Shown here: positions 13,855 to 64,000 of the stretch, in pieces
Position numbering within the stretch: position 1 is the first letter of the stretch
Layout of the letters: every line of letters begins with the position of its first letter
The notes under the pieces: model-generated
Databases searched by the model: none
What the model was told of the DNA's origin: nothing
The model's input: only the letters and a program-made list of their open reading frames with translations
Program-made: the position numbers and the translations under genes
Origin: Physcia stellaris
Taxonomy: Eukaryota > Ascomycota > Lecanoromycetes > Caliciales > Physciaceae
NCBI GenBank assembly: GCA_018902385.1
Contig: JABSSW010000043.1
Coordinates: 310,001 to 374,000 of the forward strand
Direction of reading: 5' to 3'
Length of the DNA: 64,000 nucleotides

Positions 13855-16800
13855 ATGAAGTTCTTTACGACTGCTCTCACAGTCCTATCCTGGGCCGCAG
13901 CCAAGGTATCTGCCGGAAAGCTGTCACCAACGGATACGTTAACATGGGGTGGGGACAACAGCAGATCTGGTTACCAGACGTGAGCCTTGGCTCTGACTCT
14001 TCGGTTCAGACATCGAGATTGACGCGCATACAGGAACAATAATATGGATCCGGCAGTAGTTGGCAGCTCCTCATTTGGCCAGCTTTGGAAAGCCAACCTT
14101 CCCGGCAGCTACAGGGGTTATCTCGAACAGATTTATTCACAGCCACTCCTTTACACCCTCGATGACGGAATACAATACGTCTTTATTGCTACTACTCAAA
14201 ATAATGTTTACAAAATTAATGCTAAAACGGGCGCAATCGTCGCCCAAAGGAATCTCCATATCCCCTTCTTGACCGCGGATCTCGCTAGCTGCGTGGATAT
14301 CAACCCTACAGTTGGTGTCACTGTAAGTAGCAGACGCGGCCTGATCTACATATAAAGCACTGACATAATGCACACGAAGGCTACGGGAGTCATCGACCCT
14401 GAGACCGATACCTGGTATTTAACCGCAAAGACATACGATGACCAGACAGATCAGGTCAAAGGTCTCATGAATGGCAGATACTGGTTTCACGCCATCGACG
14501 TCAACACGTTGAACGAAAAGACAGGATTCCCCAAGGGCATCGAGGGGACTATTGGCCGAAATAATGCTAACAGAATGTTCCAGTCCGGCATTGGTCACCA
14601 AAGGCCTGCGTTATTGCATACCGGCCAATATATATACGCTGGATTTGCCTCGCATTGTGTCCAGTGGAATTTTACTGGCTGGATTATGGGATGGGACAAG
14701 ACCTCTGGAAAGATGGTCGAGGCTTACAATATGGAGGGAGGGCCAGAGGCAAACTCCGTCCCAGGTGCCGGAGTGTGGATGTCAGGCGGAGGCCTGGCGA
14801 CCGACGGTAAGGGAAGCATGTACTTCTCCACTGGCAACGGCTATTCTTCACAGCAACAAGGAATCCCTATCGCCGGTCGCCAGCCGCCCACCTCCCTTGA
14901 GGAAGCCGCAATCAACATGAGGATCAATGACGATGGATCTGTCAAAGTCGTAGACTTCTTTATGCCTTGGGAAAAACAGCAGCTTGATGGTGCTGACAAA
15001 GGTGGGACGAAAAGCCCCAGTCTTCTTTTCGTTTGCTGACCTTCCTCAGACTTGGGAACTACTCCTTTAGAATTACTACCGTCGGATGTATTTACTTGCT
15101 CTAACGTCAAGCGTATGGGCGTTGTCACTGGGAAATCCGGGAAGACATACATTCTCAACTTGGACAATCTCGGAGGATACCAGATGGGCGCAAATAAGCT
15201 TGATGCTATACCCCAAGTTTTCCAAAACGAGAACTCTGTCTACGCTGGAGCAGGTGTTTATCCTGGCGAAGGAGGCTATATCTACAGTGAGTCCAGAACC
15301 AGCAGTACGCACGGAGCCAAATCTAACGCACCTGCAGTAAATGTGATTCAGTATCCGACCCATGTATTCAAGTTTTCTTGCAATGCCAACGGAAACCCTG
15401 TTTTCACCAAGGTTGCCGACAGCTCAGAAAAAAACGCATATGTCTTGGGTGTTGGTCATGGCGCGACCACGTCTCTGAATGGATCACCGGGCAGCGGACT
15501 TTTCTGGGTGACTGATGTAGATGGTTTTAATTTGCGTGTATACAATGCGGTTCCCCAAAATGGCCAACTCAACTTAATCAAGAGTGCCAACATCCCTGGA
15601 GTAACGAAATTCTCACGACCGGTATTTGGCGATGGAAGAGCTTACATTGGTACGGTGCAAGGAGCACTCTATTGCTTCGGTTCACCTGTCAATCTTCCAC
15701 TAACCTGCACCTCTCCAAACGACTTCGGAAAACAACTACTCAACAGCACATCCGCCCCAAAGACCATCCAGTGCCAGGCTAATGTGGACACCCAAGTCAC
15801 CTCAATGGCTCTAAAAGGCAATGCCAACTTCAAATTAACTCAGCTACCAACTCTACCAGTCAACTTGATCAACGGTCAGAACATTAGTTTTCAGGCAGTC
15901 TTCGCTCCCAACACACCAGGACCCCTGTCCAGCGACGTGGTTATAGGAACATCGAACGGCGCTACGGGCTTCTCGACATCCACACCAGTATCTTTGAAGG
16001 GCAATGGAGATTCGCTGGCGCCCCTACTGGCCGTTAATCCGAACACCATTTCTTTCAGTGGTGTGATCACTGGAGAACAAGCAGGAGGTGTCACCCAATC
16101 AGTAATCTGGTCCAACAACGGGGACGGGCCATTACACATTACGAGCATTGGATACTCAACCATATCCGAGACTGGTGCTACCGTCACTCCCAACATGACC
16201 GCCGATGGTTACCAAGTTGGGCCTTTCACTTTCAAGGGTGTCCCGACTACCATCGCCGGAAACGACCAGGCCACTGTTGATATCAACTTCAACCCTACCA
16301 CGAGCGGAAACTTTGCTGTGTATGTCACTGTGAAGAGCGATGGTGGCAATAAAATCTTCGACGTAGTTGCGACTGCTGGGACTTATCCAAAGGCCGTTTT
16401 GGAGTTCCAGGCTGCCGACGGATCGGGAAAATGGATTCCATATACCAACAATGCTCCTCCTTTCACATTCGGCAATGTACTTGAGCAGCATACCAAGGAG
16501 CTCAAGATGAGATTGACGAACAACGGTACCAAGTCCGCGGCCTCTCTGTCTGTCACTGTTTCCAAACCTCCATTCGGAGTCTCGGGTATTGTAGGCGCCA
16601 ACAATGGGGTTGATCTCGCTGAAGGTGTGGTATTAGCTGCTGGCGAGTCTCAGACTGCTACTCTCTACTGCTCCGTTCCAAAGTATCAGGTCAATACCGA
16701 TCCCTACAATGGTTCAGCTGTATGGACCATGAACACCGGAGATCCTACTTTTGGTAAACAGTTCATTCAGTTTACATGCACTGCGGTATCTGAACAACTT

Positions 16801-19800
16801 GGTCCATTGGCATCCAACGGCTCGGCGAAATACCGCTATACCGGCTGCTGGAAGGAGAACAACCCTGGTCGTCAGTTGAAAGTCCAGTTATGGGGTAAGA
16901 ATCCGGATAGTACGAATGGCCTTTGCATCAACGCATGTGCAGACAAAGGTTACTCACTGGCTGGAACGCAGTACGTCGACGAGTGCTGGTGCGGGAACAA
17001 TATGCCAAGACAGCAATCCAACGAGACGGACTGTAATTACCAGTGCAGTGGAGACGACACACAGACGTGCGGTGGCAATGGTTACTTCCATGATGGCGCC
17101 TTTATCAGCTTGTTCGGCGACGGAGGTGCAGCTGCATCTTTAAGCTCTAACGCAGCACCGAGCATTGTGAAATCTGTAGGAGCTTACAACTACACAGGAT
17201 GCTACACCGAAGGTACTGGTGGACGTGCCCTGGGATCGAAGAACTCTGCCTCAGATCTTATGACAATCGAGAATTGTGCCGCGAGTTGCTCAGATTATAC
17301 CTATTTTGGCGTCGAGTACGGCTCTGAATGCTACTGCGGCAACTCGCTAGGTACCGGCAGCGCGAAGACTATCGAAGGTGATTGCAGTATGACTTGCCCA
17401 GGCAATACAACGGAGATCTGCGGCGCCGGAAACCGTCTTACTCTGTATACCAAGACCCAACCTTCTGGATCGTCCTCCAGTTCTTCGGTCTCATCAACTT
17501 CATCAACCTCGTCGTCTTTATCGTCTTCGTCTTCTTCATCGTCCTCGTCGATCTCATCGTCTTCATCATCCTCGTCGATCTCCTCGTCTTCATCAACCTC
17601 GTCGTCTTTATCGTCTTCGTCGTCTTCATCAGCCTCGTCGATCTCATCGTCTTCATCAACCTCACCGATCTCATCGTCTTCATCATCCTCGTCGATCTCC
17701 TCGTCTGCATCATCCTCGTCGTCTTTATCGTCTTCGTTGTCTTCATCAGCCTCGTCAATCTCATCATCTTCATCGACGACGTCTTCAGCAACGTCGAAAC
17801 CGACAGGACCAACAGCCGTTCAGACCGCAGGCGCTTTCTCCCACCAAGGATGCTATTCCGAAGGCACCAATGGGCGTGCATTGAGTGCCACCAGCACCGC
17901 GAACAATGCAATGACGGTCCAAAAGTGTGCCACCTTCTGCTCAGGATACAAGTATATGGGCGTTGAGTACTCATCCGAGTGCTATTGTGCGAACACCATT
18001 GGCGCAGGAGCTGCGCCTGCGACTAGCGGTTGCAACATGGTGTGCTCCGGAGATGCGACGGCTCTGTGCGGTGGTCCCAATAGGCTGAATTTCTATTTGA
18101 ATAATGGAGGCTCGCAAACTTCAACATCATCCTCGCCAGCGTCTCAGACCTCTACGTCTACTTCGCCGTCAAACTCTGGGCCTGCAATCGTTCAGAAGGC
18201 CGGAACATTTGGCTACAAAGGATGCTACACAGAGGGTGCCTCGGGTCGCGCACTATCCGAGAAGCAAAGCGCTCAAAGCTCAATGACCGTCGAGCAATGC
18301 TCAACGTTCTGTTCGGGTTACATGTACATGGGTGTCGAGTATGGGTAAGTGTCAACGCTGTTTATTTTCGCTTGACCTGTTAGCTAATTTGGCATGTTTA
18401 GATCTGAGTGTTATTGTGGAAACACAATCAATGCTGGATCAGTCACAGCTACCAGTGGATGTTCGATGACATGTGCCGGAGACGCAACCGAGTACTGCGG
18501 TGGAGGAAATCGTCTGAACCTGTATCAAGCGGGTATCAACACACAATCTAGTTTTACCAGCTCTCAGTCATCGACTAGCAGCGCAACATCAAGGTCGTCA
18601 AGCACAACCAGCAGCGTAGCGTCAAGCTCGTCAAGCACAGTCAGCAGCGTAACTTCAAGCCCGTCAATCACAAGCAGCAGCACAGCATCGAGATCATCAA
18701 GCACAGTCAGCAGCACAAGATCAAGCTCGTCAATCACAATCAGCAGCGTAACTTCAAGCCCGTCAATCACAAGCAGCAGCACATCATCGAGATTACCCAC
18801 CACAATTAGCAGCGTAGCTTCAAGCTCGTCAACCACAACCAGCAGCGTGACTTCAAGCCCGCCAATCACAAGCAGCAGCACATCATCAAGGTTGTCATTA
18901 TCCAGCAGCACGAGCAGTACTTCCAGCATAGCTTCCAGTTCAGGCCCTGCGGTTGTTCAAGGCAATGCCAACTTTACCTATACAGCCTGTTACGTCGAAC
19001 CGCCTAATGCTCGAGCCTTGCCCAGCCTAGTCATAGCCAATAACCAGATGACCGTCGAACTTTGTCTTTCTGCCTGTGCGCAATACGCTTTTGCTGGTCT
19101 TGAATACGGACGGTAAATACATTTCTCGCCAGCTTCTAGGTATTGCTCTTCATGCTAACTTCTTGAACAGAGAGTGCTGGTGTGGAGACAATCTTGCTTC
19201 AACCGCGACCAAAGCAACCGCCGAAAGCCAGTGTAACATGAAATGTTCAGGAGACGCGACGGAGCTCTGCGGTGCCGGTAATAGATTGACTCTGTATACC
19301 CATAAACCTGCTATCAAGCCCCAAGCCAAAATCGCCTTCGCTCAACAGGCGGCTGTCTCCACAGGATCAGCGGTACAGTCTTCCTCTACCACCAGTCTTG
19401 CAGGTTCATCATCTCCAATCTCATCTTCATCAACCGTCAGCTCAACCAGCTCAAAGTCGGCAACCTTGACAACATCAATTGCAAAGTCTTCCAGCCAGAC
19501 AGCCAGCAAGTCGTCCTCGACCGGCACCACCTCGACCACTACGCTTCTTCCGACCCCTTCTCAAACCATTGGTGGCTTCTCGTACTTGGGTTGCGCCAAT
19601 CAAACCTCGCCTGTAGCTTTGGTGGGTATGTCCAAAACCAATAGCAACAATATGACTACAGAAAGCTGTCAGGATTATTGTTTGGAAAACAATTACGGCC
19701 TTGCAGCAACCCAGAACGGTGATGCTTGCTATTGTGGTAATGGCCTGCAGTCATACTCAGCCGTTGGCCAGGAATCCTGCAACGTCGCTTGTGCGGGCAA

Positions 19801-53800: not shown

Positions 53801-56150
53801 TAATTATCGCAAAAAAAAACAATTTCGAATATCGATTGTGAATGTTGTACGTGAAATTTCGTATTGTCGATTTTCGCGTTTTTGATTCGATTTAATTTAT
53901 TTGAAATTATTGAATTAATCAATCGAATCAATCGTGAATCGAAAACATTATATTGAATTTTGATATAAAAACACAAAAATTGAAAAATAAATGTGTTACA
54001 ATCAACGCGACATCAAATATGTATCAAAAATAAAAAAATAAAAAAATAAACAATGCAGTTTAACGCGAAACGTTTTTAATTGTGATTGACGAAATTGATT
54101 AAACAAATTTTTTGTCGTCGATTAAAACAACGATTATTTGTTTTGATCGTCAAATTATTTTGTTATTTAACGTGTTTCGCGAAAATTTAAATTTATTGAT
54201 TTTTATCGTGTTTTATCAAATATACGAACATGTTATTTATTTTTCGTTTAATTGTTTGTATTTTACAAAATTGTGCGATTGAAATCAAATAAATTATTAA
54301 AACAATTTCAAATATATTAAATTATTATTTATATCAAACATGATTTTTTTTGCGATCGAAATGTTCGATTATAACGATTAACATCGACAAAAAAAATGAA
54401 ATATCGTTTTTCGTTATATTGATATTTTTTTTAACATAGTTTTTTTTTAAATTTCGAATTCAAAAATTTTAATGAACGATAAATAAAACGACGACAATAA
54501 TATTTATCGCAATCGTTGTTTTTTATAATTTGTATTTTGCGATATTTTTCGAAATATTTAAAATTAAAAACACAATTGCGAAAATTGACAAATTGTTATA
54601 AACATTTGATTGCGACAATTCAAAATTTTCGCAACATTATTATTTTTGATGTTAAATTGAAATTCGAAATATAACAAAATATTCGAATTAAAATTAAATC
54701 AATCAACGTCGTATTTCGATCGCATTTAAATCGATTTGAACATTTATAAATTGTTTTCAATCGTATTCAATGATTTTAACAACAATTGAATGATATTAAA
54801 AATAAATATCGACAATGTTTGAATATCATTTATAAATCGTGCGATCGCGAAAATTTTCAACATTCGAATACGATTTTCAAAATTTTCACAATTGACGTAA
54901 TTGTAAAAAATTATATATTGTTTGACATCGAATCAAATTTGTATTAAATTCAATTTGTTTTCAATTATATTTTCAATTTTTTTGATTTTATTTAGATATA
55001 TTTTTTGTTGCAATTTTCGTTTTCGATTTTTATGAATCGAAAAAAACGAAACAAATCGTGAAAAAAAAATAAACAATAAAAAAAACAATAAAAAATTGAA
55101 AAATGATTTGAATACGAAAAATAAATTGAAAATAAAAATTGAATTGTTAACGAAAAATGAATTGAAAAAAAAAAAAAAAAATAAAAATCGAATTAAAAAA
55201 AATGAAAAAAAAAACGAAAAATGAATTGAAAACGAAAAAAATGAACAAATAAAAAATCGTTGTTGTTGCAACGATTCGCATAATGATATTAACGTTAATA
55301 TAATTAATATTTTGAATCGAATTGATCGTAAAATATTAATTTTTTGAAAAATTGTGCGTCGATTATTTTTATAATTCGTTATGTTAATTTTTAATACAAA
55401 TCGTTTAATCAAAATGTTTTTTTTTATTTGCATTGATGATTTATTTTGATTTAATTTAATAAAAAATTGCAAATAATAAAATTTATAAAAATATATTTCG
55501 AAAATCGCGATTTTTCAAAAACGAAAAAAATTGCATCGTTGATTTTTGACATTTTTCAATTCATATAATTCGCAATGTATGAATTTCAATTCGAAATTTA
55601 TTTTCATATTTTTTTTTCAATATTTGTACAAATTTATCAAATTTCAAATATTTTATCGTGATTTTTCAAAAAAAATATTTGAAAAAATTATGTTTTTTGA
55701 TCGACACATTTCGTTATAACAATTTTTTTTTTCGAAAAAAAAATGCAATTGTATCGAAAACAACATTGAATAAATAAAATTTTATAATAAAATTATTATT
55801 GTATAATTTTTCGAATAATATTAAATTTGTACGTTTTTTTTTGCAATTGTTGTTGATTTTTTTAATTCAATAAAACAAATATGTTTTTTTTATGCGAAAT
55901 CAACGTTTTCGAATATTGTAAAAAAAAAAATTTTGATTGTAATAAAAATCGATTACAATTTTTTTTTGATATTAACATGATTAAATTTGTCATTTAATAT
56001 TTCATTTTTAATCAAATTTTTTTTCAAAAAAACGTATATTATTTTGTACGTTTTTTCGTTTATTTTTAAATCAATACGAATACGATCATTTGTTCAATAA
56101 TTTACGTTCAATTTTTTTCAATTTTTTTTTACGAAAAACATTGAAAATAA
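50850..56150. other. Featureless AT-rich stretch
   Basis: Some 5 kb of extremely AT-rich sequence with long A and T runs. The only link found is 50955-51045, which resembles 43100-43200 inside the 6.3-kb LTR element (GAAAATATTTTTAACACGAT, then CATGCGTCGTAAATTTT), so at least the left part is another relic of that family. The ORF at 54933-55472 (-) is Phe/Lys/Ile low-complexity and is regarded as chance. Confidence 0.6.
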
Positions 56151-56332
56151 TTATTGTGATCGATATTTTCGATATGTAATTCGCATTCGCACGAACGCGT
56201 TAAACAAACAATTAAACAAATAATTAATATATAAATTTGCGAATGATGTCGAATTTGATCGTCGAATTGCACGTTGTGTAATTGTTATAACACAAAATCA
56301 AATTAAATAATATAAATTTAAATCGAATATTT

Positions 56333-56970
56333 TGACATGATTTTTGACAAAAATTCTGTCGTTATTTTATATTAAATGAATGATAATCAAACAATTGATT
56401 CGCAATTATTGTACATAAATTGACATTTTGTCGTTCATAATTTTTAAATTAATCGAAATTCACATATCATGTTTGATAATTGATAACATTATTCAAACGA
56501 TAATTTGTACGTAAACAAATTGATATCATCAATTGTTTTTAACGTATCAATTTTCGAAATAACACAAAACGATTTTAAATATCAATTATTTATTATCGTT
56601 GTAATTTGATTTTATCGTCGAAAACTTTATTGTTTTTTCGATTTGACGTGTCGATCGAAATCAATTATCAACAACAAATATTCAATTGAAAATGAAAATT
56701 TCAATTAAGTTTTTTATTTTTTTAACAATTTTCAACAAAAACGATTGATTTTTTTTTAATATTCAAAACATTTCGATTTTTCGTGAAAATTCGTATTGTC
56801 ATCGTTCAATGACGACGCATTTAAATGTCAATTTATTATCGAATTTTTGTTCGATTCGAACAATTCAATTTAACGATTTTATTTGTTTTTTCATCAACAA
56901 ATTATTTGTTCAACAAGTTTTGAAAATTTCAATTCGTTTTTTTTTCTGTTTTGTTTATCATTTTTTTAAA
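56333..56970 (+). repeat. Left arm of a long inverted repeat
   Basis: Matches the reverse complement of about 63195-63835 over some 640 bp. Landmarks are ATTAAATGAATGATAATCAA, TGTACATAAATTGACATTTT, ATTTGTACGTAAACAAATTG, TCGATTTGACGTGTCGATCG, CATTGTCATCGTTCAATGAC-like sequence and TTTTTTCATCAACAAATTAT. Mismatches are mostly C/T or G/A, with this arm the more AT-shifted. A weaker match continues outward to about 56150. Confidence 0.85.
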
Positions 56971-59900
56971 GAAAACGCGAACGATTGTAAAAATCAATTT
57001 CGACAAATATTGATTCGAATTGTGCAATAAACACAACGAAATAAATTCGTTATGTTGATGACAATTTCAATCGATACGTTAAACGTTCGATGCGTTCAAA
57101 AATTCGAAATAATTCGCAACGTTGTTGAAATAATTTCGAATTTGATTTGTCAAACAGTTTGTAATTTTTGTTGAATTGTAAATAAATTTTTTCATTTTGT
57201 TTTAATCGAATAAAAATATAACGTGAATCATAATATATTTTGATTTTGACAATTGCAAAATTCGTGATATCGACAATTTTTTGTTGATATTTCATGCGTT
57301 GAATTGACAAATTCTGTACATTTGTTGTGTTAAATGCGATTAAATTTGATATCGCGTTTTTGATTTTGAATTCGTATATGATTTTATTGAATGATAAATT
57401 TGTAACGATGTTAAACGTGTTGTTTAGTTGAATTTGAATTGCAAAAAAAAATTAAAATGTAATCGATGTTCGAAAATTCGATGACGAAATATTTGATAAC
57501 AATTTCAACAATTTGATTGATTCGTTTTGACGAATCGTTCGTTTGCGAATGATATGTCATTGAAATTAACAATTTCGTGTTTAATTTGATGAAAAACATT
57601 TGTCAAAAATTCGACATGAATTTTGAATCACGATCGAAAATTATAGTTTTAAACATTTTTCAATCGACGATTAATAGTTTGTTCAATAATGCGTTGATTC
57701 ATTTTTTCGTTTCATAAATGTTTTTGTCGAAAATCAATGAAATTCGACGAAAATATTTACAAATTGCGAACATAACAATGTTCATTTCGTCAAATATAAT
57801 TAAAATGAAATCAATGACAATGATATGAAACGAACGCGAAACGAATGTGATAAACATGAATTTTTCGTACAATCGATAACGTTTAAATTTGTGTTAATTG
57901 ACAAATAAAACAATGTTCGATATATTTTTTAATTTTTCGCGAAAATCGAAATATGTATAACGTATTGAAAATTTTGTCATAATATCGATGAATTTTTGAA
58001 TGTTAATTCTGATTATAAATTAAACGAAATATTTTTCGTTTCATTGTGACAAATATACACGATCGACGCGAATCAATGTCAACGTGATATATAATGTCAT
58101 TCGTATTTATCGCGAAATTGATTTTTGTTTTGAACTTTTTTGATATAAATTTCGTATCGTCATTTTTTTGCTCATTGACGTTTCGATTTTTTACGTTGTT
58201 TTCGAACGACGACGAAATTTGAAAATTTCGAATCGACAATTTTTGTTTTTTTTTTGCATTCGAATCGTCAACGATTTTAACATTTTAATCATGTTTCGTC
58301 ATGTTTTTTTTTTTTGATATTCGTTTTTGATTTTTTTTTTAAATTTTTCGACATGACAATAAGAATGTTTTGAAAAGCGTAACAGTCGAAATTATTCGAA
58401 AAATCGATTATTTCGTCATGATATGTGTTCAAATCGAATTTATTTTTTGAATTTTTATCGATTTATTTATTTTCAAACGTTAATTTTGATAACGCATTCG
58501 AAATCACATGATTTTTTTTATTTATATTTCATTTTCAATTTAAATTGTGACAAATAAATTGAAACACGAACAAAACGAAAATTGAATTTATCGATGTTGT
58601 TCGAATTCATCGTGATTTGTTTAACGATAAAAATATTGACGACATGATTCGTGAATACAACAATGATATTTTTGATTGTTTTTATCATATGTCGAATTTT
58701 TTTGACAATTCATATTAAATCACACATTTCGAATTCGATGAATCAATATTTGATTTCGATTTCGTTCAACATTCGATTTAAAAATAGAATAAATTCGATA
58801 TCGTTACGTTTGAATTTGTTTGAATTATTGTTTGTTTTGAAATGATAAATTATCGCGTCGAATTCGCGTCGTTTAAACGCGTCGATGTCGATGTACAATT
58901 TTCGATCGAAATTGAAATGTATCAAAAATGAAATTTTGTTAAAAATTTTTGCAATAATCGATATGATTTTAATTTTTCAATTGAAAAATTGTTTATTACA
59001 ATTTTTGCGAATAGATTTTGCGAATGATGTTTTTGTTGAAAAAATTGACGTAAAAATAAAATTTTGCGACGTTATAACGCGTTCGTTTTTGAATATAAAA
59101 CGCGACGAATTTTCGTAATCATTTTGTTAAATTTAAATAAATTTTCAAATTTTTCAAAATATAAAAAAATTCAATTTAATTATTGTTTTCAATTTATCGA
59201 TTGCGATAATGAAATCAAAAACGTCAATTTTTTGATCAAAAAATGCGATCGTAAAATAGTCGAAAAATGATTTTTCGACGACAAATTAATTTCATAAATA
59301 TTAATCGTTCGAATATCGAATGAAAATGAATCATATGTTTTTCAAAAATATTGAAAAAAACGATAATGTCGTTTACGTAAACACGAACAAATTCGCGAAA
59401 ATTTCGAAAAATAAAATCGATTCGTCGTTGTACGTATGATGATGAATTTTTGAAATTCATCACGACGACGTTAAATTGTTTTTGTTTTTTATGTGAAACG
59501 ACGATAAATTTATGTTTGTTTGCAAATTTTATCAATTATTGATGAAAAAAATTCGCAACGTCAAAAACGAATATGAATTTGCATTCGACGACAATTGAAA
59601 TAATGTTTGATTGAAAAAACATAAAATAAAAATCGATTAAAATGATTTTGTTTAATTCGCGTATATTCACGACGATTCGATTTTTGCGTTTTAAATCATT
59701 TGATTCAAATATTGTTTTTTATATTGCGAAAACAAAATAATCATGCGAAATGAATTGATTGATGTATTTTATGCGATTTTGAACGTGCAATTTATCGAAA
59801 ATTTCATCAACGAGTTTTCGATTTGCAAAATCGAAAAAATAAATTTTCGTTGTTTCAATTTTCGCGTCGAATTTGAATTCAATTGATATTCATTTTTCAA

Positions 59901-62900
59901 ACGAAATTCGTACAATAAATTCGTTATCATTTTACAATTTTGAATAATTTTCGATTACATTTGCAAATTTAATTCGTGCGTTAATATCATCGTAAATCGT
60001 GATATTTGCAAACAAAATTTTTTCAAAATTAATGTTTGAATTTGAAACAAAATTGTTAAAATTTTCGCTCGAATTAATTGAAAAATTGATCGCAAAATTG
60101 AAATTTGTATCGACGAAATTAATCGCGATCGCATCGTGCAAATTTTTATAATTAATCGCGATAATCGCGTCAACGATCAAAATCGAAACATCAAATTTCA
60201 ATGTTTGTTTGAATCAATTTTTAAAAACAAATTTATGAACATTAACAATTAAATGAACGTATTTCGAATTAATTAAATAACATTTTTTTTTTCGTATTTT
60301 TGTACGAATTTCAAACGCGTATTTTTGAAAATGTAAACATTTTCAAAATTGACGTTGTTAATTTGAATCATTTTTGTATAAACATCGATAATATGAAAAA
60401 ATACGTTTTCATTTAAATTTAATCGTTCAATTCGCGAAAACGTGAACATAAAATCGCGTTCAATAAATAAATTATTTTTTTCACGTAATTTGAAAAAAAT
60501 CGTAAAAATTGATTTAATTGAAATTTTAATAATTTCGTTGACACGAATCACGCGTTTGATCGACGATTCAACATTAATGACATTTAATTGAATTTTAATG
60601 TTTTTGCAATTTTCAATGATAATCATTTGTTTGTTTACATTTATATTCATTCGTTTTGAATTCAATATATCATTGTCAAAAAAAATTTTGTTTTAATTTT
60701 TTCATTATGTAAATTTGTCGAGTGAACGTGACAATCGCATTTTCGTCATTAATCGAGATTTCGAAAATTCGAAAAATTAATGATATATGATTCGTCGTGA
60801 TTATGACGACATTTTCGATATCGCGAATTTTGAAAAATTTCATGATTTGTCGCGCATGAATTCGATAATCAAATATTTTTTGCATCAGAAATTTGCGATC
60901 GATTAATGACGTATCGCATTCGATATCGACGCACATATCAATAAAAAATTGTTTTATGTTTGTTTTTATCGTGACGTAACGTTACGAACGAAATTCGAAA
61001 TTGAATCGTGTATTTGTTTTAACATTTGATTGTATGATAAATGTTTGATAATTATGAGCATTTTTCGTCGACGATGTGTCAAATTTAATCGAAATTGTTT
61101 GACACGAACGCAAATGTCGATGAAATTTGTTATTAAAATAAAATTTCGATTGACAACGTTTGCATGAATAGATTTTTGTTTATTTGATTGAAATATTCAC
61201 AAAATACTCGAATGATTCATGAATTACATAATTTTCATTAAATTTTTGAATTTCGAAATGTTTTTCGTCATGATATTTATCATTTATTATAAATATTTTT
61301 GACGCGTTTTCAATATTCATGTTGTAATCATTTTGATAATTTTTTTCATCGAGTTTGAATAATTGTTTTTGCTTTTTTTTTCGCAAAATACGTTCGTCGA
61401 TATAATGTTTCATTTTGATTTGACGTTTTATTTTGATTGAAATAAATATCTTGTTTAAACGAAAACGAAAATGAATTTGAAAAATCAACAAAATATTGAT
61501 TAAAACGTAAAAATTGCGAATATTGAAATCGCGAATCGAACGTGTTTCGATTTTTTTGAATTTCGTTTTGTTGCGTTTGTTGAAATCGATATTGTTGATT
61601 TTCGTATGAACGTTTTTGCATATTTTGTGTCGATTGTTGTCGATTTGAATAGTTTGACTGATACGAACGCTGTTGAAAAATGTAAACGTTATTTTGTTTT
61701 TCAAATTGATACGATATCGAATGTTGAATTTGACGAAATTGCGAAAAAAATTCATTGAAATTTTCGTAATTTACATTACGTTTATTGATGAAAAAAAAAA
61801 TATTATACGAATCGAATGATGTTGACAATGTTGATAATTGAAAACGATAAATAAATTGAAAACGACGTTCGTTTTCGTGTTGAAAATAAAAACGATATCG
61901 ATTTTCGATGTTTCATTATATTTTTTTTTATCATCAAATTGTTGAAAAAATTCATTCATAATAATTTTTTCTGTCGATTTAATTAAATTTCGTCGAAATT
62001 TTAATTTCAATTCATTGTAAATTAAATAAAATTGTGAATAAATTGATATCATAATCGATTTAACATTTTTGATTATTATTTCGACGAAATCGAATGATTT
62101 TTTATGTTTGCGAACATTTTTTATAATGTATTTTTTTTCGTGATCATCGTCAACGTCGTGAACGACGATTTTTTATAACGTTTTAACAACAAACGTTTTC
62201 ATTTTTTTACGTTTTTTTTTAATTTGATCAAATTTTTTTGATCGTCATTGACGATTTCAATATATTATCGTAATGCATGATCACGCATACAATTATAAAA
62301 ATTTGTTCGAATCACATCAACATTTTTGAATAATGTCATATTTTTAATTTTTTCAATATAAAAATGAATATTTCGAAAATATGTATTTTTGCTCGAATGT
62401 TCGATCGAATTGTCGATAATAACGTTTTTTTTTTTCGTATCACGAATCGAAAAATTTTGTTTTTTGAACATTTTATTTGACGTCATCGTCATTGTCAAAA
62501 AATTCGATTGAATTTGATGATTCGACAAAATTTTGAAATTTTGTTTGAACATCGTTTCGAACATTTGTAATCAATGTTTGAAAAATTTGTCATTGTTGTT
62601 GCGTGAATTTCGTGTTTTGTCAATTGTTATTTTCATTCGTCATGTTTGTATTAAATGCAAAAATAAATTCGATATTTTTTGTGTTTCGAAAAATAATATT
62701 CAACGAAATTATGATGTTGTTTCGTCGTTGAAAAAACGACGTCGACGAAATGATTTGAAATTTACGACGTAAATTTTTCGAAAAATGAACGTAAAAAATA
62801 TCAAAAAAAATATTTACAATCGTCGATTTTAAATCAAAAATGAATGACGTAATTCGATCATTAATTCAATCGAAAAATGATTGATTGTTTCGATACGTTT

Positions 62901-63195
62901 CGATGACGATCACGAAAATTTTAAAATTTTTGCGAAAACGAATTTTGTCGACGATTCATTTTGCTGAATAAACAATGTTTGTTGAAATTGAATGATTAAT
63001 GACAAATAACGATGTTAATTTAAAACAATTAATTACGATATTGTTTACAATAGCTTTTGTTGATGTATTGACAAAATAAATTCGATTAATTGTATCGATG
63101 TAATCGAATAATTCAAACGCAATGCGAATGATTTGTGATGTAAAAACAATCAAAATGATTTAAATGAAAATGATGTGTCGTATTGAAATTTGAAA
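56970..63195 (-). mobile_element. Ty3/gypsy retrotransposon body, heavily decayed
   Basis: Read on the minus strand, the parts come in Ty3/gypsy order: Gln/Asn-rich gag-like sequence with a nucleocapsid-like basic tail (about 61180-62560), a protease-like region (about 60270-60936), the pol entry region with an ANITIYDD block (about 59932-60201), reverse transcriptase with the YVNDI active-site region (59236-59535), and an integrase core and C-terminal domain with YHSQTN (57411-57599) and IERLTYRLKL (57050-57310). It is broken by very many changes (dozens at least), in the RIP pattern, and is old. Direct LTRs were not found; instead both sides are flanked by arms of a long inverted repeat. 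Confidence 0.8.
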
Positions 63196-64000
63196 TAAAA
63201 TGATAATAAACAAAACAAAAAAAGAAAAACAAATTGAAATTTTCAAAATTTGTTGAACAAATTATTTGTTGATGAAAAAACAAATAAAATCGTTGATTTG
63301 AATTGTTCGAATCAAACAAAAACACAATGATAAATTGACATTCAAATGTGTCGTCATTGAACGATGACAATGCGAATTTTCACGAAAAATCGAAATGTTT
63401 TGAATATTTGAAAAAAAAATCAATCGTTTTTGCTGAAAATTGTAAAAAAAATGAGAAATTTGATTGAAATTTTTATTTTCAATTGAATGTTTGTTGTTGA
63501 TGATTGATTTCGATCAACACGTCAAATCGAAAAAACAATAAAATTTTCGACAATGACAACGACAACGATGATAAATAGTTGACATTTAAAATCGTGTGTT
63601 ATTTCGAGAATTGATACGTCAAAAACAATTGATGATGTCGATTTGTTTACGTACAAATCATCGTTTGAATGATGTTATCAATTGTTATGCGTAAAATGTG
63701 AATTGATTTATTTTGAAATTATGAACGACGAAATGTCAATTTATGTACAGTAATTGCGAGTCAATTGTTTAATCATCATTCATTTAGTATGAAACGATGA
63801 CAAAATTCTTGTCAAATGTTTTGCAAGAATATTCGATCTAGTTTCAAATCATTCAATCTGATTTTATGTCATAACAACGATGCAAAAATCATTGAAAAAA
63901 TGAAAATGACGAAACGAATAATATTTGATTGATAAAAAGCGAACTGTTCGAACTCAAAACTTGTTAAAATAGAAATAATTCATTGATTATATCGATGATG
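63195..64000 (-). repeat. Right arm of the long inverted repeat, reaching the window edge
   Basis: The reverse complement of the left arm (56333-56970) for 63195-63835. The match weakens but seems to continue to the edge of the window, so the outer limit is unknown. This arm keeps more C and G than the left arm. Both arms contain the same inward-facing open stretch (left 56809-57030 on +, right 63113-63370 on -). Confidence 0.8.

Follow-up and report, generated by a model that had tools for sequence, protein, structure and literature searches.

Inverted arms around a Ty3/gypsy-type body in Physcia stellaris very probably stem from two insertions of one family joined at a single point

How does the coding body of a gypsy-type retrotransposon come to lie between two long inverted repeats instead of between direct LTRs? 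A locus in the fungus Physcia stellaris raises this question. We studied it in a stretch of 64,000 nt (C43:310001-374000, hereafter the window) and searched the genome of 43.97 Mb in 147 contigs. In a BLAST search of the window against itself, 56282-56968 paired with 63877-63196 (minus strand) over 691 columns with 86.4% identity (E = 0.0), which bears out the preliminary description of long reverse-complement flanks around a gypsy-type body. This is the only long inverted pair among the 24 self-matches of the window (E <= 1e-8), which include one further inverted pair of 108 columns. After refinement, the arms were placed at 56283-56968 and at the reverse complement of 63196-63876, and they are about 86% identical. 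Their global alignment contains 675 ungapped columns with 76 mismatches, of which 61 are transitions, and 17 gap columns. The match between these inverted arms is far above chance. A gypsy body with long inverted repeats on either side could pass for a new class of element. Comparison with other copies of the family and with empty target sites removes this false lead and points instead to two truncated insertions.

The window as a whole consists of two different parts. At about 36000 a gene-rich part with 50% GC changes sharply to decayed repeats with 17-34% GC. The gene-rich part harbours Spt16-like, WSC-domain and GH64 genes, a set in keeping with a filamentous fungus, and the WSC-domain gene (15052-18348) has internal repeats inside or next to it, at 17482-17777 and 18576-18910. 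The features of the locus, as we interpret them, are the following:

55582..56281, plus strand: older repeat X (the stretch searched), host of element 1, broken at 56281/56282; 21 other copies cover at least 480 bp
56283..56480, plus strand: 5' LTR of element 1, class A, about 198 bp, starting with TGTTAT; inner end approximate
56481..56968, plus strand: 5' leader of element 1, about 485 bp; the remainder of element 1 is absent here
56967..56972, no strand: breakpoint between element 1 and element 2, with a few shared bases at most; the exact base is not resolvable
56971..63195, minus strand: coding body of element 2, from the gag to the integrase zone, broken by stops and lacking the last 342 bp and the 198-bp 3' LTR
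57050..57451, minus strand: open piece with a weak match to SH3_Tf2-1 (integrase C-terminal part, Tf2-like; E 1.1e-4, 22.7 bits, cut-off 30)
59236..59535, minus strand: open piece with a weak match to RVT_1 (reverse transcriptase; E 1.6e-4, 21.9 bits, cut-off 29.6)
63196..63678, minus strand: 5' leader of element 2, normal and continuous with the body, as in other copies
63679..63876, minus strand: 5' LTR of element 2, class B, about 198 bp; inner end approximate
63877..64000, plus strand: older repeat Y, host of element 2, extending beyond the window end; the upstream part is present in 11 of 11 other copies found that start at its first base

The flanks are not LTRs as such, as the other copies of the family show. 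The genome search with the left arm gave 41 rows, with the best 40 of 144 candidates scored; these matches each span at least 600 of the 687 bp, with the exception of one 101-bp piece on C17. The body was searched with 1 kb of its sequence (best 40 of 110 candidates) and with its left edge (best 40 of 94). Among the best-scored copies of these searches, identity to the window was 78-89% for the arm and 84-96% for the body. Five copies were read across the left edge of the body (C34, C4, C10, C30 and C13). Beyond the body, all five have about 342 bp that are missing in the window; next comes a ~198-bp stretch, which matches 63680-63877 in direct, not inverted, orientation. When this left stretch was compared to the arm region of the same copy (C34, C4, C10 and C30), only these ~198 bp matched, with 90 to 95% identity. 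The LTR, which runs TGTTATGACA...TAACA, is therefore about 198 bp long, and the other ~485 bp of the arm are 5' leader. Since the arm consists of LTR and leader, the one on the right of the locus is what an element on the minus strand normally has as its 5' end. What had been called the right arm is just that part of the natural 5' end of element 2 which has a left-hand partner. The equal placement on both sides is likewise only apparent, as on the left a shortened 5' end lies against the cut end of the body. An exact target duplication of 5 bp was present in two of the four copies read at both ends (GTTTT in C34 and GCAAC in C30); C4 and C10 have no matching 5-bp duplication at their ends.

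The same arrangement was found when arms and bodies were paired across the genome. A scored arm lies within 16 kb of 18 of the 39 other bodies, in all 18 cases on the 5' side and in normal orientation. The distance between body and arm is 6.2 to 6.3 kb in nine copies and 6.5 to 15.9 kb in the nine others, where either inserted sequence or another copy may account for the greater length. On the 3' side, none of these 39 bodies has a scored arm within 1.5 kb, and the window's is the only pair within 12 kb in the set of 40 long arms scored (the 101-bp piece on C17 omitted). A contiguous normal 3' end was found for at least 27 of the 40 scored body left edges (among 40 scored 3' ends); this is a lower bound, since C30, in which direct reading showed a normal 3' end, is among the remaining 13 together with the window. 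The proposal that the body had inserted at the centre of an older palindrome fails, as the arms are 5' ends of the body's own family; the right arm continues into the coding body in other copies too, which rules this reading out. A second head-to-head pair of the same family was seen at L019 (C17:750175-750862). There, a body cut inside its leader meets a copy of opposite orientation roughly where the LTR ends, in the manner of a nested insertion.

Classes of LTR were set by eye on a MAFFT alignment of 28 arm loci (L001-L030 without L001 and L007); the two window arms (L001 and L007) were entered separately. Three classes were distinguished, A with 14, B with 11 and C with three loci, and they are split by a transversion-bearing stretch in the first ~70 bp of the LTR. 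Because C-to-T decay cannot make transversions, these classes reflect more than decay. The left arm of the window belongs to class A and the right arm to class B. In the normal copies with both LTRs read, the two were of the same class in four of four. The left arm is also the more decayed of the two: at 43 sites its T or A faces a C or G in the right arm, against 18 sites the other way round.

The sequences outside the arms differ as well. The 700 bp to the left of the left arm belong to the older repeat X. Each of the 16 other X copies found that reach its last base runs on unbroken for at least 115 bp into common sequence that is absent from the window, and the four empty X sites that were read diverge from the window at 56281. 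The outer flank of the right arm is a separate repeat, Y, for which the best 40 of 68 candidates were scored; all 11 other copies found that start at its first base have an unbroken upstream part. Four empty sites were read here too, and the X and Y stretches read show no match to each other. The outer 5-mers of the window, GTAAT and ACGAT, are unmatched, and because the flanks X and Y differ we take them as remnants of two different target sites. Taken alone, this mismatch is weak evidence, as C4 and C10 also have no duplication; the comparison of 5-mers is ambiguous since decay alters bases, and the empty sites of X and Y decided the matter. Regarding the location of X, the four copies read (L067-L070) are no more than 20 kb away from a contig end, others lie mid-contig (C5:591670 and C19:380867), and the window copy lies about 60 kb from the contig end. 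It may be that X favours chromosome ends.

Because the LTR classes differ, and because X and Y differ and are uninterrupted elsewhere, we read the locus as two separate insertions of one family joined at a single breakpoint. We hold this with high confidence, however the joining came about. Element 1 (plus strand, LTR class A) would have inserted into the older repeat X, and element 2 (minus strand, LTR class B) into the older repeat Y. At a single breakpoint, the first ~686 bp of element 1 would then have been joined to an element 2 that lacks its final ~540 bp. As LTR and leader, the 5' end of one and the same family, stand on either outer side, the locus takes on the look of a single body with inverted arms. 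The simplest history of the join would be a deletion between two oppositely oriented neighbours; a different rearrangement or an assembly misjoin could also have produced it. The preliminary description had offered four readings, and the one in which two elements collided head to head is supported by the differing LTR classes, the differing host repeats and the single junction (one among 40 scored). Of the other three, the new element class and the older palindrome fail in the comparison, and the inversion of one flank is disfavoured.

To what extent the junction itself is genuine is a separate matter. With a 201-bp probe across it, the window alone matched on both sides among the best 40 of 125 candidates, and the 39 others were one-sided. 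Around the junction, the leader is T-rich and varies between subfamilies. The joined partners have at most a few bases in common at 56967-56972, which fits end joining, and we infer a rearrangement of the end-joining type rather than an assembly error. An assembly misjoin would leave both insertions real and concern the last step only: the assembler would have crossed a copy of element 1 in X to a copy of element 2 in Y. We regard this as unlikely, though as a contender to be reckoned with, since the junction lies in a multi-copy family and was found once among the 40 scored. Moreover, neither X's far half (all 23 candidates scored) nor Y's near half (all 12 scored) was found on contig C43, and the missing 3' end of element 2 was not found there among the best 40 of 136 candidates. 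The absence of these counterpart pieces from the contig also stands against a full reconstruction of the event. However, misjoins usually follow long shared sequence, and here the few shared bases and the opposite orientation of the elements speak for a true join.

Two further explanations start from a single element. In the first, an inversion within one ordinary element would have turned one end round; the preliminary description had likewise considered one flank to be inverted by recombination. The outer arm does belong to the right family, but an inverted 3' end would consist of the 342 bp and the LTR, whereas the left arm is a 5' LTR with its leader. Its LTR is of the other class, it lies in the other target repeat, and the pieces expected at a reciprocal junction were not found on contig C43 (3' end search: best 40 of 136), which makes an inversion very improbable. 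Still a little less probable is the integration, in one event, of a single aberrant cDNA that had a 5' end at each terminus. This would explain why both outer ends are exact LTR termini, and GTAAT and ACGAT differ by transitions alone, which C-to-T decay could cause. It does not explain two LTRs of different classes, nor flanks from two repeats, X and Y, each of which continues otherwise in every copy found that reaches the breaks. The weakest reading is a separate DIRS-like or Maverick-like class in which a gypsy-like pol lies between long terminal inverted repeats. It agrees with the local picture only and is scarcely credible, as the same body has direct ~198-bp LTRs elsewhere, just one of the 40 scored matches has the inverted junction, and both the zinc domain of an integrase and an SH3 domain of Tf2 type occur in the family. 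Other copies with direct LTRs around this body had been named beforehand as grounds for dismissing such a structure, and it was these that the genome search uncovered.

Ten of the 33 listed minus-strand pieces of the window were scanned with Pfam, and RVT_1 and SH3_Tf2-1 were matched, both below cut-off. In other copies, RVT_1 scored above cut-off in L050 (30.7 bits), in a piece homologous to that of the window, and Integrase_H2C2 was matched with 2.7e-9 (L054) and 5.7e-7 (L041). The reverse transcriptase lies upstream of the integrase domains, in an order assembled from different copies. SH3_Tf2-1 has at least 150 matches in the genome (best 150 of 471 candidates). No credible Pfam match to gag or aspartic protease was obtained in the scanned pieces of that zone. 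For the integrase core (rve), six matches were found in the genome, none of them at the listed copies of the family; decay may hide the core. A BRO1 match in 58003-58284 (E 3.8e-4, 19.9 bits, cut-off 35.1) was taken as chance, as were other sub-threshold matches of single pieces to unrelated families.

Direct LTRs of the form TG...CA were seen at all five left ends, with matching 5' ends in four copies. A short target-site duplication was also present (5 bp, exact in two of four copies), which is unmatched at the window locus. From its sequence, the family is most probably a Ty3/gypsy (Tf2-like) LTR-retrotransposon. The conserved inverted or split direct terminal repeats of DIRS-like elements were not found, the other copies read having direct LTRs, and the integrase zinc and SH3 domains of the family argue against a DIRS-like tyrosine recombinase. 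Similarly, long inverted termini common to the copies, as in a terminal-inverted-repeat transposon (Maverick/Polinton or similar), were not observed, the junction being single among the 40 scored. A target duplication of the Maverick/Polinton type outside the termini was not found either, as the outer flanks are different repeats.

The decay of these repeats has a pattern of its own. RIP-like C-to-T decay was observed in 36000-64000 and in loci L001-L074. From 51.0 kb to the window end there is no CC or GG at all, CT and AG are rare, and CA, TG and CG remain. Where some copy keeps C, the fraction of T is 0.95 for CpC (a value from about seven columns), 0.89 for CpT, 0.18 for CpA and 0.11 for CpG, as determined in 27 RT loci (30 less three shorter ones). 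The preference is independent of the preceding base, with ACA the highest of the spared contexts at 0.27. The copies of X and Y show the same pattern. Between the two arms, differences occur at CpA (33), CpT (16) and CpG (12), CpC and CpT being nearly exhausted in both. The CpA change between the arms weighs somewhat against a total sparing of CpA.

As a second index besides TpA/ApT, (CpA+TpG)/(ApC+GpT) is the standard form. TpA/ApT was 0.35 to 0.56 in the decayed sets versus 0.70 in the gene-rich part, and the second index was 1.27 to 1.59 versus 1.23. The usual thresholds for RIP, in the portions available of the papers that state them, are TpA/ApT >=0.89 and a second index <=1.03 (PMC2621366, PMC10998396), and these papers print the formula variously. 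According to the accessible part of one study, Magnaporthe oryzae and one Botrytis strain have CpT as the main signature, followed by CpA, and CpT comes after CpA in another Botrytis strain and in Sclerotinia (PMC4352252). Raised CpT change is given for Neurospora Tad1 and Stagonospora in what was available of PMC2621366, and a survey, in its accessible part, states that RIP-like defences have a CpA preference in common (PMC12543289). Decay of CpC and CpT with CpA spared was not found in the literature, covered mainly as titles and abstract openings. On balance, we favour the view that a RIP-like process targets CpC and CpT after any preceding base and largely spares CpG and CpA, the classical target, and that standard indices would score these repeats as negative. 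Tools built on CpA-to-TpA would miss the decay signature in these repeats.

Three genes for cytosine-5 DNA methyltransferases were found in the genome, L075 (C6:791557), L076 (C3:340323) and L077/L078 (C5:499307/498855). In the pieces scanned, L076 has a DUF7893 domain and the other two show the methylase domain only. They could be RID- and DIM-2-like enzymes. The CpC/CpT decay might be tied to one of these three genes.

Both elements are ordinary, mutation-riddled fragments of fungal retrotransposons, and the locus is debris for which we propose no function. Nothing in the structure itself is novel. The nearest known system is the Tf2-like branch, which we take to be that of Tf1/Tf2 of fission yeast and which is linked to this family via Pfam SH3_Tf2-1. 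With these fungal Ty3/gypsy elements the family shares the reverse transcriptase before the integrase, direct LTRs of the form TG...CA and, where readable, a 5-bp duplication. Unlike Tf2-like elements, the copies examined here are decayed, to a variable degree, by C-to-T change, and the window locus has the 5' end of a second element in place of its own 3' end. In the titles and abstract openings of the literature on inverted or chimeric LTR elements, no description of the window arrangement was found. Nested and complex arrangements of LTR-retrotransposons, as far as the available parts of their reports describe them (PMC6911290, PMC1950507), have in common with our locus that related elements interrupt each other or share parts. 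In contrast to these, the parts in the window are opposite in direction, are joined internally in both elements and have no LTR at the join. Finally, RIP-decayed repeats of Ascomycota, to judge from the accessible portions of the reports (PMC4352252, PMC2621366, PMC12543289), resemble those studied here in that repeats saturated with C-to-T change lie beside unaffected genes. In those cases the change affects CpA, CpT together with CpA, or CpG, whereas in the P. stellaris repeats CpC is hit at least as strongly as CpT and CpA is largely spared.
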